Source: Streptomyces sp. YIM 98790 (lineage in GTDB: Bacteria; Actinomycetota; Actinomycetes; Streptomycetales; Streptomycetaceae). Taken from it: 64,000 nt of DNA. The first letter of the stretch is position 1, and each line of letters opens with the position of its first letter. A program made the position numbers and the translations under genes. Positions 460-5,664 of the stretch are shown here, in pieces. The notes below the pieces were generated by a model. That model did no database searches. It saw only the letters and a list, made by a program, of their open reading frames with translations, and was not told the origin of the DNA. The DNA lies in NCBI RefSeq assembly GCF_011421595.1, contig NZ_WTLH01000009.1, positions 4,745 through 68,744 of the forward strand. The letters run 5' to 3'.

Positions 460-828
460 TCAGGATTCGGCTATCACGACCGCGGAGGCGATGCCGGCGT
501 CATGGCTGAGGGAGAGGTGCCAGGTGCGCACCCCGAGCTGGTCGGCCCGGGCCAGCACCGTGCCGGCGACCCGCAGCCGGGGCTGCCCGTTGGGCTCGGT
601 GAACACCTCGGCGTCCGTCCAGCGCAGCCCCGGCGGCGCGCCCAGCGCCTTGGCCAGCGCCTCCTTGGCCGCGAACCGCGCCGCCAGGGACGCGACACCG
701 CGCCGCTCACCGCTGGGCAGCCACAGCTCGCTCGCCAGGAACAGCCGGTCCGCGAGCTGCGGCGTGCGCTCCAGGGCGGCGGCGAAGCGGTCGATCTCCG
801 CCACGTCGATGCCCACCCCGACGATCAC
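460..828 (-). CDS. acpS: Holo-[acyl-carrier-protein] synthase
   Basis: Transfers the 4'-phosphopantetheine arm from CoA to apo-ACP, which activates fatty acid synthesis in the cytoplasm. The 122-residue protein opens with [14 protein letters not shown] (Mg/CoA-binding Asp) and carries the [12 protein letters not shown] motif at about residues 55-66, both diagnostic of the AcpS family, whose usual length is about 120-125. The GTG start at 828 overlaps the stop of the preceding GlmS-like gene (GTGA), so translation is probably coupled. A longer in-frame reading to 912 would add 28 Gly/Arg-rich residues from within the upstream gene and is rejected. Confidence 0.93.
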
Positions 829-1538
829 GCCGGCACCACATCGCAGCGGATTTCGTCCCCCGCCCGGCGGACCACGGCGACCTCGCCCTCGGCCGGCTCC
901 ACGACCTCCCACACCGGCAGCCCGTCCAGCAGCGCCCGGTCGGTGACCAGATACGCCTCGCCCTGCCCCAGGCCGACGGCCAGCCTCCGGCCCGCGCCCC
1001 GCCGCACCGCGACCACCGCGTCCGGCTCGTCGGCGTGCAGCGCGGCCAGGGCGAACTCGCCCCGCAGCCGCCCGGCGACCTGCCGCATGGCCTCGCCCAG
1101 TTCGCCGCTGGAGGAGAACGCCTCGGCCAGCAGGTGCGCCACCACCTCGGTGTCGGTCTGGGAGGCCAGCCGGTGGCCGCGGCCGGTCACCTCGGCGCGC
1201 AGCGCCTCGGCGTTGTCCAGGGTGCCGCCCTGCACCACCGCCACCCGCCCGGCCTCGTCCAGCTGCGGATGGGCGTTGGTCTCGGAGGGCGCGCCGCGCG
1301 TGGCCCGCCGGATGTGGGCCACCCCGGTGCCGCAGCTCGGCAGCGGGCGGCGCTCCAGCAGGGCCAGCAGGTCGGCGAGTTTGCCGGCCGTCTTGGCGGC
1401 GGCCAGGCCGCCGTCGGCGAGCAGCGCCACGCCCACCGAGTCGTCGTTCCCCGGTCCGGTCCGCTCCAGTGCGCGCAGTTGGCCCAGCAGCACTTCGAGC
1501 GCGGACTGGCCCCCGACGTATCCGACAATGCCGCTCAC
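825..1538 (-). CDS. Degenerate GlmS-like class II glutaminase domain, no SIS domains
   Basis: The 237-residue product matches only the N-terminal glutamine amidotransferase domain of glucosamine-6-phosphate synthase (GlmS is about 610 residues). Family landmarks remain: MSGIVGYVG at the start, NAHP at 88-91 and TDTEVVAHL at 128-136. The nucleophile Cys2 of GlmS is Ser here, the TRWATHG loop reads IRRATRG, and the oxyanion-hole segment VVHNG reads VVQGG. It therefore should not hydrolyse glutamine, and without the sugar-isomerase domains it cannot make glucosamine-6-phosphate. Start is GTG. It is translationally coupled to acpS and divergent from coaA. It could be a decaying remnant of glmS or a repurposed regulatory or binding protein. 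Confidence 0.8.
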
Positions 1539-1626
1539 GGGGTCAGACTACGGGATGCCACCCGTCCCGCACGGGCCGCTGCGGCCCCGTCCCGGCGCGG
1601 GGAAGCCCGGGTGGGAGGATGGCTGC

Positions 1627-2688
1627 GTGTCGGACTACATCCAGCCGGAGACACGGGCCGCCCGCCCCGCCCGGCCGGCGGCCCCGGCGGACGACGGCAT
1701 GCCCGGCCTCCCCGCCGGACGCAACGGCCGCCCGGCCCGCGGCGACGCCAGCCCGTATCTGGACCTCAGCCGCGCCGAGTGGAGCGCGCTGCGCGAACGC
1801 ACGCCGCTCCCGCTCACCGCCGAGGAACTGGAACGGCTGCGCGGCCTGGGCGACGTCATCGACCTGGACGAGGTCCGCGAGGTGTATCTGCCGCTCTCCC
1901 GGCTGCTCAACCTCCACGTCGGCGCGGCGCACGGACTGCGCGACGCGCTGCGCACCTTCCTCGGCTCCCCGGGCGACCAGGCGCCGCGCACCACGCCCTT
2001 CGTGATCGGCGTGGCCGGCAGCGTGGCGGTCGGCAAGTCCACCGTCTCCCGGCTGCTCAAGGAGCTGCTGGCCCGGTGGCCCGAGCACCCCCGGGTGGAG
2101 CTGGTCACCACCGACGGCTTCCTGCTGCCCAACGCCGAACTGCGGCGGCGCGGCCTGATGGCCCGCAAGGGCTTCCCCGAGTCCTACGACCGGCGTGCGC
2201 TGGTCCGCTTCGTGGCCGACGTCAAGGCCGGCCGGGAGACGGTGGAGGCCCCCGTCTACTCCCACCTCGTCTACGACATCGTGCCCGGCGAGCGGCTGAC
2301 CGTGCGCCGCCCGGACATCCTCGTCGTCGAGGGGCTGAACGTGCTGCAGCCCGCGCTGCCCGGCACCGACGGCCGGACCCGGGTGTCGGTGGCGGACTTC
2401 TTCGACTTCTCCGTCTACGTGGACGCCCGGCCGGCCGACATCCGGCGCTGGTACCTGGAACGCTTCCGGAAGCTGCGCCGCACCGCCTTCCAGGACCCGT
2501 CCTCCTACTTCCGCCGCTACACCCAGGTCTCCGAGGAGGAGGCCCTGGCCTACGCCCGCAACATCTGGCAGACCATCAACGAGCCCAATCTGGTGGAGAA
2601 CATCGTGCCGACCCGCGGCCGGGCCACCCTGATACTGCGCAAGGGGTCCGATCACCGGGTGCAGCGGCTCTCCCTGCGGAAGCTCTAG
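1627..2688 (+). CDS. coaA: Pantothenate kinase type I
   Basis: ATP-dependent phosphorylation of pantothenate, the first and controlling step of coenzyme A synthesis. The 353-residue protein has the P-loop [12 protein letters not shown] at about 125-136, the TTDGF segment and the SYDRRAL and PNLVENI motifs of prokaryotic type I PanK (CoaA). The GTG start at 1627 is chosen because GGAGGA lies 7 nt upstream. The first 60 residues are Pro/Ala/Arg-rich and extend beyond the usual 310-330 residue family length. It is divergent from the GlmS-like gene across an 88-nt promoter gap. The downstream neighbour glmM converges on it. Confidence 0.95.
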
Positions 2689-2726: not shown

Positions 2727-4115
2727 CTAGCCGTTGCCGACCGGGGCGACGGCCAGAGCGGTGCGGACCACGCCGGCCAGTTCCTCCGCCACCCGCTGCG
2801 CCTGCTCCGCGGTCGCGGCCTCCACCATCACCCGCACCAGCGGCTCGGTGCCGGAGGGCCGCAGCAGCACCCGGCCGGTGGTGCCCAGCTCCCGCTCGGC
2901 CCCGGCCACCGCCGCGGCCAGTTCGGCGCTCTCCGCGACCCGGCCCTTGTCCACCCCGGGCACATTGATCAGCACCTGCGGCAGCCGCGTCACCACGCCC
3001 GCCAGCTCGGCCAGCGGCCGCCCGGTGGCCGCCACCCGGGAGGCCAGCAGCAGCCCGGTCAGCGTGCCGTCCCCGGTGGTGGCGTGGTCCAGGGCGACCA
3101 CGTGCCCGGACTGCTCCCCGCCCAGCGAGTAGCCGCCGCGCTTCATCTCCTCCAGCACATAGCGGTCCCCGACCGCGGTCTCGCGCAGCAGCAGGCCCTC
3201 CCGCTCCAGCGCCAGCTTCAGGCCCAGATTGGACATCACGGTGGCCACCAGGGTGTTCCGCCGCAGCGCCCCGGCCTCCCGCATGGCCAGCGCCAGCACG
3301 GCCATGATCTGGTCGCCGTCCACGTCCCGGCCGGCGGCGTCCGCGGCCAGGCAGCGGTCGGCGTCGCCGTCCACCGCCACGCCCAGGTCGGCACCGTGCT
3401 CGGTCACGGCCGCGCGCAGCGCGTCCAGGTGGGTGGAGCCGCAGCCGTCGTTGATGTTCAGCCCGTCCGGGTCGGTGCCGATGGCCACCACCTCGGCCCC
3501 GGCCCGGGCGAACGCCTCCGGCGCCACCCGTGAGGCCGCGCCGTGCGCCGCGTCCACCACGACCTTGAGCCCGTCCAGCCGGGCGGGCAGCGCGGACAGC
3601 AGGTGCCCGATGTAGTCCTCGGCGCCGCCCGCGTGGTCGGTGATCCGGCCGACCGCCGCGCCCACCGGGCGGTCCCAGGGCTTGCCCTCGGCGGCCTCCC
3701 GGTACGCGGCCTCGATGCGGTCCTCCAGCTCGTCGGCCAGCTTCTGCCCGCCGCGGGCGAAGAACTTGATGCCGTTGTCGGGCATGGGGTTGTGGCTGGC
3801 GGACAGCATCACGCCGAAGTCCGCGCCGAGCGAACCGGTGAGATACGCCACCGCGGGGGTGGGCAGCACGCCGACCCGGCGCACGTCCACGCCCGCCCCG
3901 GCCAGCCCGGCCACCACGGCGGCCTCCAGGAACTCCCCGGACGCACGCGGGTCACGGCCCACCACGGCCACCGGCCGCCGGGCCTCGCCGCCGGCCGCCT
4001 CCTGCGCGTCCGTGAGCACGCGGGCCGCCGCCTCCGACAGCCCGAGCGCCAGCTCGGCGGTCAGCTCCACATTGGCGACGCCGCGTACCCCGTCCGTGCC
4101 GAAGAGTCGTCCCAC
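2727..4115 (-). CDS. glmM: Phosphoglucosamine mutase
   Basis: Interconverts glucosamine-6-phosphate and glucosamine-1-phosphate on the way to UDP-GlcNAc for peptidoglycan. The 462-residue protein shows the four family signatures in order: the phosphoserine loop [10 protein letters not shown], the metal loop DGDADR, the sugar loop GGEQSGH and the phosphate-binding RPSGTEP near the C-terminus. It starts [12 protein letters not shown]. It lies downstream of rplM-rpsI but is separated from them by a perfect terminator hairpin, so it probably has its own promoter. TAGGGT at 4161-4166 is a possible -10 element. Confidence 0.96.
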
Positions 4116-5320: not shown

Positions 5321-5664
5321 GGTCGTAGCCTTCGCTAGTGGTGAGTGATTCCTTACAGAAGGATCACGCGGGAGTCGGCAGCGCAGGCCAGACCTCGGTG
5401 ACGCGAGCCGGGGACTGACCGCTGCGATCGCGCGGTCTCCGCGTAAGGCCCCTCACGTGAGATCGAGCAAGCCATACGCATATCGACCAGTCAGGGTACC
5501 TGCCCCGGGCAGGGCCGGTCAAAACGGCCGGGCGCCGGGCGCGCAGCATCGTGTCACGTACGGGGCCGCCGGGGGTGAGGGTGCGACCGGACGGTGGCGG
5601 CGGTGCGGGGATTGTGACCATCCGGGTGCGGCCCGGACAAACGGTTTTCCCTAAGATGCGTCGC
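5321..5664. other. Divergent intergenic region rplM / membrane protein gene
   Basis: A 344-nt gap without a credible gene. It holds the rplM promoter (5493-5522), an rplM leader of about 165 nt, and on the other strand TAAGAT at 5652-5657, a -10 box 7 nt before the next ATG. Confidence 0.6.
5493..5522 (-). promoter_or_regulatory. Housekeeping promoter of rplM-rpsI
   Basis: On the minus strand, -35 TTGACC (5517-5522) and -10 TACCCT (5493-5498) are separated by 18 nt. The extended box GTTTTGACC is the same as in the rpsL promoter, which supports a shared vegetative-sigma type. Confidence 0.6.

Follow-up and report, generated by a model that had tools for sequence, protein, structure and literature searches.

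A GlmS1-derived glutaminase domain with a degenerate active site that overlaps acpS in a Streptomyces clade, a candidate translation-coupled first cistron

AcpS activates acyl carrier proteins, many of which are used by Streptomyces in fatty acid and polyketide synthesis. β-Lactam synthetase and carbapenam synthetase carry vestigial class II glutaminase domains that lack the cysteine nucleophile. As for the glutaminase-containing GlmS proteins, we take SCO4740 to be GlmS1; our literature searches found no paper tying this tag to the name. SCO2789 is named GlmS2 (PMC13170358), and glmS1 and glmS2 both belong to the DasR core regulon (PMC4398421). Leaderless mRNAs arise from 21% of the primary transcription starts of S. 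coelicolor (PMC4895711), and coupled leaderless small open reading frames (ORFs) have been described in mycobacteria, where coupling can be conserved without conservation of the peptide (PMC4633059). Here, we describe a short gene of Streptomyces that has features of both a dead glutaminase domain and a leaderless coupled ORF, and on which no publication was found in our literature searches.

The short ORF, its neighbors and its GlmS1 origin

The window, that is, the whole stretch of 64,000 nucleotides of Streptomyces sp. YIM 98790 DNA analyzed here, contains on its minus strand an intact ORF of 237 amino acids (825..1538), with a GTG start codon and no internal stops. The TGA stop codon overlaps the GTG start codon of acpS in a GTGA junction (825..828, minus strand), and the coupled downstream gene encodes a holo-ACP synthase of 122 amino acids (460..828, minus strand; NF000832, 171.1 bits, cut-off 107). 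Six nucleotides before the start codon lies the −10-like hexamer TAGTCT (TANNNT; 1545..1550, minus strand), as in leaderless-type promoters. The divergent neighbor is coaA, encoding type I pantothenate kinase (1627..2688, plus strand; TIGR00554, 462.2 bits, cut-off 235), followed by the conserved neighbor glmM, encoding phosphoglucosamine mutase (2727..4115, minus strand; TIGR01455, 561.4 bits, cut-off 447.55); both were used as controls for synteny and selection. Farther along, between positions 5551 and 7200, long ORFs overlap on opposite strands, as is usual in GC-rich DNA, and the program-made ORF list should not be taken as a list of genes in this region.

Against the GlmS model TIGR01135, the short ORF scores 173.9 bits, which is below the cut-off of 418.05 for full-length GlmS, and matches positions 2–218 of 607, the isomerase (SIS) domain being absent from 825..1538. 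It passes the cut-offs of both Pfam glutaminase families, GATase_6 (PF13522, 62.5 bits against 27) and GATase_7 (PF13537, 50.7 against 25), and these scores, together with the matching fold (see below), place the protein within the class II glutamine amidotransferase fold. In a phmmer search, the solved structures nearest to it are those of E. coli GlmS and of the glutaminase domain isolated from it. Thus, a previous sequence-only reading, which had described a lone glutaminase domain in an open frame of 237 codons, coupled by GTGA to acpS and next to CoA, ACP and GlmM genes, is borne out on each of these points.

The same reading had suggested a remnant of a glmS2-type gene and a search for a complete glmS elsewhere. 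Most of the 392 genomes of the genus searched contain 2 GlmS matches; among the matches listed, the first is approximately 54–62% identical and nearly always has a frame of more than 500 codons, and the second is approximately 38–44% identical. Comparison of gene order showed that the acpS-linked position is that of the first and that acpS adjoins either GlmS1 or a short form in related loci too. Since the short ORF occupies this position and is approximately 58% identical to acpS-linked GlmS versus 42–43% to other GlmS, it is, by synteny and identity, a remnant of GlmS1, so that the suggested origin holds as to a remnant and fails as to its GlmS2 type. The one complete GlmS of the window genome was found on contig C7 (606 amino acids, 726.1 bits against 418.05) and retains the MCG, TRWATHG and HNG motifs, and a third, weak match passes the PurF cut-off. 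A full-length GlmS2 paralogue is likewise encoded in each of the 8 genomes with a short form (described below), its catalytic motifs having been inspected in 2 of them, those of the window and of S. aidingensis.

No GlmS1-type isomerase domain was detected in the 8 genomes. The best match, with 44–45% identity, lies within the GlmS2 gene and the next best is an SIS protein (33–35%; in the window genome, the GlmS2 domain with 44% and the SIS protein with 33% are the only matches), whereas the control genome G113, which has a full GlmS1, yielded a match of 91%. Given also that the short forms are open in 8 separate assemblies, an assembly artefact or a split gene was rejected.

Distribution of the short form and its loss

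The orthologue in S. aidingensis is 89% identical, also has 237 amino acids and lies in the same gene order; we refer to these 2 sequences as the window pair. Six further Streptomyces species (G180, G061, G295, G210, G145, and G369) carry a short form at the same place. All 8 are open and encode 229–263 amino acids, and each overlaps acpS in an ATGA or GTGA junction. There are at least 8 such forms, since the follow-up covered 36 low-scoring or single-match genomes and a few more may be hidden; a search at 1e-75, a threshold too strict for diverged short forms, found a close copy in no second genome among 394. Several other candidates were rejected as short forms: the 262-codon frame of G097 is a GlmS1 running into a contig end, and G198, G202, G386, G008, and G163 retain the isomerase part, their glutaminase part being disrupted by a frame break or an insert or reaching a contig end.

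In a FastTree phylogeny of 80 taxa based on 5 neighboring genes, the 8 short-form taxa and 2 others, G137 and G354, form one clade (SH-like support 0.993), within which G137 and G354 fall together with the window pair (0.989). The tree covers 80 of 105 loci (24 were short of enough of one of the 5 genes and 1 was a S. aidingensis duplicate), and most of its outgroups stem from the 80 best matches, which biases the sample towards GlmS1-bearing species, some perhaps present twice. No glutaminase match was found between coaA and acpS in G137 and G354. The sequence-only reading had held that frameshifts or loss in close relatives would signal plain decay; loss is indeed seen in these 2 sister species and frameshifts are not, all 8 copies being open.

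Because the 8 carriers and the 2 domain-less species form a single clade, one truncation in the clade ancestor is likely. A slightly varied DE(V/A/I)R tail, not seen in the GlmS1 consensus, is common to short forms of both subclades; with the new tail partly shared and the carriers in one clade, an independent truncation of the window pair was rejected as less simple. We suggest that the clade ancestor lost the isomerase half of its acpS-linked GlmS1, with the GlmS2 paralogue presumably covering glucosamine-6-phosphate synthesis. Elsewhere in the genus, too, GlmS1 has disappeared without leaving a remnant the size of a domain: no glutaminase match (E 0.01) was obtained in any of the 23 acpS loci retrieved from genomes lacking GlmS1.

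The comparison also revealed other variation around acpS. At the GlmS1 place between coaA and acpS, 3 loci, L204 (G322), L199 (G392), and L209 (G162), encode a conserved acidic protein of approximately 80 amino acids with DEDLTEDLTDSLELYVMGSKPRCEESEYLELMEDAIERMAR, and a related ORF occurs in L195 (G401). The nnrD gene, downstream of acpS, is inverted relative to acpS in the 6 short-form species other than the window pair (L172–L177) and is not inverted in S. aidingensis (L179), G137 or G354. In G159 and G192, the genomes of which are rated 99% and 95% complete, only weak acpS matches were obtained (2.6e-10 and 2.8e-6); the usual acpS may be absent from them, may have been replaced or may lie in an assembly gap.

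Active site, fold and selection

The second residue of the window protein is Ser instead of the Cys of GlmS, TRWATHG has become IRRATRG, HNGI has become QGGT and the loop RGYD has become TGPGNDD, in agreement with the replaced nucleophile and the altered oxyanion and TRWATHG loops originally noticed in the sequence. Of the 90 positions that are near-invariant among 128 distinct full-length Streptomyces GlmS1 proteins, 59 are unchanged in the window protein as well as in that of S. aidingensis; Cys1, Arg26, Trp74, His77, and the oxyanion Asn are among those lost from the window protein. (We take the oxyanion Asn to be Asn98 in E. coli numbering, position 100 here, and assume the glutamine pocket roles of Arg73, Trp74, Thr76, His77, and Asp123 from the GlmS literature.) None of the 8 short forms has Arg26, Trp74 or the oxyanion Asn, and the Gly following the oxyanion Asn is the only one of 10 pocket residues kept in all; Arg73 is kept in 6, Asp123 in 5, Thr76 and His86 in 2 each and His77 in 1. 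Replacement of Cys1 by Ser is confined to the window pair, the other 6 forms retaining Cys. Lacking the N-terminal Cys in the window pair, and an intact oxyanion Asn-Gly and glutamine pocket in all 8 forms, these proteins do not have the make-up of an active class II (Ntn) glutaminase, and catalysis has probably been lost from the short form.

The suggestion that the protein serves as a nitrogen or amino-sugar ligand sensor was not upheld across the clade, as only the one Gly of the 10 pocket residues is kept in all 8 forms. Nor was targeted loss of the active site supported, since the 10 pocket sites are not lost more often than other invariant sites at the 5% level (p 0.07–0.33 in each of the 8). 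Because of this, the domain appears to have drifted as a whole, and the common glutamine pocket does not seem to be what is kept. A very improbable alternative is that the protein remains active as an N-terminal nucleophile hydrolase but on a different substrate, acting through Ser1 in the window pair and Cys1 in the other 6. Ser can be the nucleophile of Ntn hydrolases, and all 8 forms retain the N-terminal (C/S)G(I/M)VGY strand; however, the universal loss of the oxyanion Asn, Arg26, and Trp74, the species-to-species variation of the loop residues and the low confidence of the modeled N-terminal region argue against it.

The AlphaFold2 model of the window protein, built from 20 aligned sequences, has a mean pLDDT of 69, with block means of 39–58 over the first 90 residues and 68–94 thereafter. 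The best Foldseek match of the model is the glutaminase domain structure 1xff (TM 0.74). With the same 20 sequences, an intact GlmS1 domain reached a pLDDT of 75, the difference being mainly N-terminal (49–76 in the blocks of the first 90 residues). With alignments this shallow, the models hint at a loosened active-site half.

Between the window gene and its S. aidingensis orthologue, dN/dS (omega) is 0.26, with no gaps and differences of 12/14/43 by codon position, and omega of 5 neighboring genes is 0.14–0.21. The 3 other recent short-form pairs have omega values of 0.26, 0.28, and 0.33, and their neighbors 0.06–0.17; none of the 4 recent alignments contains a gap. Intact GlmS1 glutaminase domains range from 0 to 0.19 in 8 pairs, and the 3 most diverged of these, which are nearest to the window pair in synonymous distance, have values of 0.14, 0.14, and 0.19. 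When the same base changes were placed at random positions (500 neutral runs per pair), median omega was 0.97–1.22 and the lowest values per pair were 0.49, 0.40, 0.53, and 0.55 versus the observed 0.26, 0.26, 0.28, and 0.33. Since omega is below all neutral runs yet above intact GlmS1 domains, purifying selection at the amino acid level on the short form is, as judged from these comparisons, real but relaxed relative to intact GlmS1. The dN/dS check proposed with the original reading thus speaks against free decay, and both of its options, a glmS remnant and selection for a non-catalytic role, are partly right; the ligand-sensor version of this role is not supported across the clade.

Two limits apply to these values. 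One antisense frame also has a low omega (0.30–0.37), so that omega alone cannot tell the strand and the coding strand rests on homology. In addition, deeper short-form pairs have omega values of 0.51–0.62, which are a poor guide because coaA is also raised in such pairs (0.26–0.46). These deeper-pair values, along with 28–73 gap columns and the glycine-rich inserts in the short forms of G210 and G369, look like slow decay.

Whether the gene is a functionless, slowly decaying pseudogene, its frame open because stops arise slowly in GC-rich DNA, has to be considered at this point. Premature stops appeared in only 18–50% of the neutral runs per pair, so frame openness is weak evidence of function; the loss of the domain in 2 sister species, omega above that of intact GlmS1 domains, the glycine-rich inserts and the domain-wide drift, in which the pocket has fared no worse than other invariant sites, would all fit decay. 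We nevertheless regard it as unlikely, in view of omega values lying below all 500 neutral runs in each of the 4 recent pairs, the absence of gaps from these pairs and the concentration of window pair differences at the third codon position. The usual marks of a pseudogene, namely, frameshifts, stops and neutral evolution, were not observed, all 8 frames being open and omega being below neutral in 4 pairs. Overall, it looks as though neither a known enzyme activity nor neutral pseudogene status fits the protein.

Purifying selection at the amino acid level in 2 subclades is also what would be expected of a dedicated pseudoenzyme acting in trans, for example, by binding AcpS, CoaA, GlmS2 or a small ligand, with the coupling to acpS only setting stoichiometry. 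The 63 alignment columns identical across all 8 short forms, the model that still matches the GlmS glutaminase domain and the retention of Arg73, Thr76, His86, Gly, and Asp123 in the window pair speak for this possibility, to which we give well below an even chance. It is weakened by the variation of pocket residues between lineages, by the absence of the protein from 2 sister species and of any glutaminase match from the 23 acpS loci without GlmS1, and by the fact that no binding partner is known.

Leaderless-type start, coupling to acpS and comparison with known systems

In 123 of 126 full-length GlmS1 loci (those scored of 132), a TANNNT hexamer ends 4–9 nucleotides upstream of the start codon, compared with 0.33% of background positions, and all 8 short forms have it at the right distance. 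Transcripts from the short-form start are thus predicted to be leaderless. Among 21 acpS loci examined in genomes without GlmS1, the acpS start was recognized in 16 (the unscored loci are those of G277, G129, G074, G208, and G071). A leaderless-type ORF ending in an RTGA overlap precedes 4 of these 16 starts, with 10 (G229), 14 (G401), 21 (G354), and 41 (G137) codons; the hexamer stands directly before acpS in 3, and neither the motif nor a coupled ORF was found in the remaining 9. Leaderless-type ORFs occur at 33 of 2,791 other NTGA sites (acpS sites excluded, a site being an NTGA that opens at least 20 codons), giving a binomial p of 3e-5 for 4 of 16, a value that ignores kinship, as the small ORFs of the sister species G137 and G354 may go back to a single event. 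In an earlier, narrower control, with acpS sites left in, the count was 6 of 51 (p 0.11). The 14-codon ORF of G401 (L195), MCAVVGCGPVGVVS, resembles the GlmS N-terminus and overlaps acpS by RTGA; in this genome, which has no short form and lies outside the 80-taxon tree, the GlmS1 gene has apparently shrunk to its opening codons.

Only 18 of the 75 full-length loci with readable spacing (of 79) have the exact overlap, which acpS thus does not require in general. Predicted anti-Shine–Dalgarno pairing before acpS is a weak −5.1 kcal/mol in the window pair and −9.3 to −10.4 kcal/mol in the other 6 short forms (the median of 79 full-length loci is −6.5 kcal/mol), and, with this stronger pairing, acpS may be translated without coupling in these 6.

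Taking the evidence together, we favor, at about even confidence, a selected pseudo-glutaminase that is at the same time the first, translation-coupled cistron before acpS on a leaderless mRNA. After truncation, the leftover glutaminase domain would have lost its catalytic residues and kept its place at the head of the acpS operon. The transcript would begin at the start codon of the domain or immediately beside it and be leaderless, and ribosomes would translate the domain and then initiate anew on acpS where the two genes overlap (RTGA), for which reason the frame would have to stay open if acpS is to be fully translated. The polypeptide itself would also be constrained, either to remain foldable or by a role at the protein level, which would explain why omega is above that of the active GlmS glutaminase domain and far below neutral. 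Coupling alone, with the gene as a pure leader ORF, was rejected, as it predicts omega of about 1 and the recent pairs have 0.26–0.33.

More tentatively, and with considerably less confidence, the loci could mark stages of an enzyme gene turning into a regulatory leader, from GlmS1 through a dead domain that serves both as protein and as translation entry to acpS, to a coupled ORF of 10–41 codons as found in sister species and other lineages, such that AcpS output is governed by what is left of an amino-sugar gene. All three states, the intact gene, the truncated form and the reduced form, occur within the genus. If acpS translation depends on the upstream dead domain, this would explain why a fragment that seems to be of no use remains open and under selection, and would point to one way in which high-GC bacteria could acquire coupled leader ORFs. 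In practical terms, such genes should not be annotated as GlmS or as active amidotransferases.

Of the described systems, the glutaminase domain of E. coli GlmS (PDB 1xff) is homologous to the window protein (phmmer 6.4e-36) and its best fold match, with the short form ending at the interdomain linker. Unlike E. coli GlmS, the short form is free-standing, with no isomerase domain, and the window protein has no Cys1, Arg26, Trp74, His77 or oxyanion Asn. With β-lactam synthetase and carbapenam synthetase the window protein shares a class II glutaminase fold lacking the Cys nucleophile; in those enzymes, however, the domain is fused to an active asparagine synthetase-family domain, whereas the short form is a separate, GlmS-derived gene. 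The mycobacterial ORFs, as described in PMC4633059, are similar in their leaderless-type start, in the upstream TGA overlapping a downstream RTG start and in an architecture that is kept as the sequence changes between lineages. They differ in encoding unconserved peptides of 5–50 amino acids, whereas the short forms have 229–263 codons, derive from an enzyme and are under selection at the amino acid level (omega 0.26 for the window gene); it is only the ORFs of 10–41 codons in other species that fall within the size range given there.
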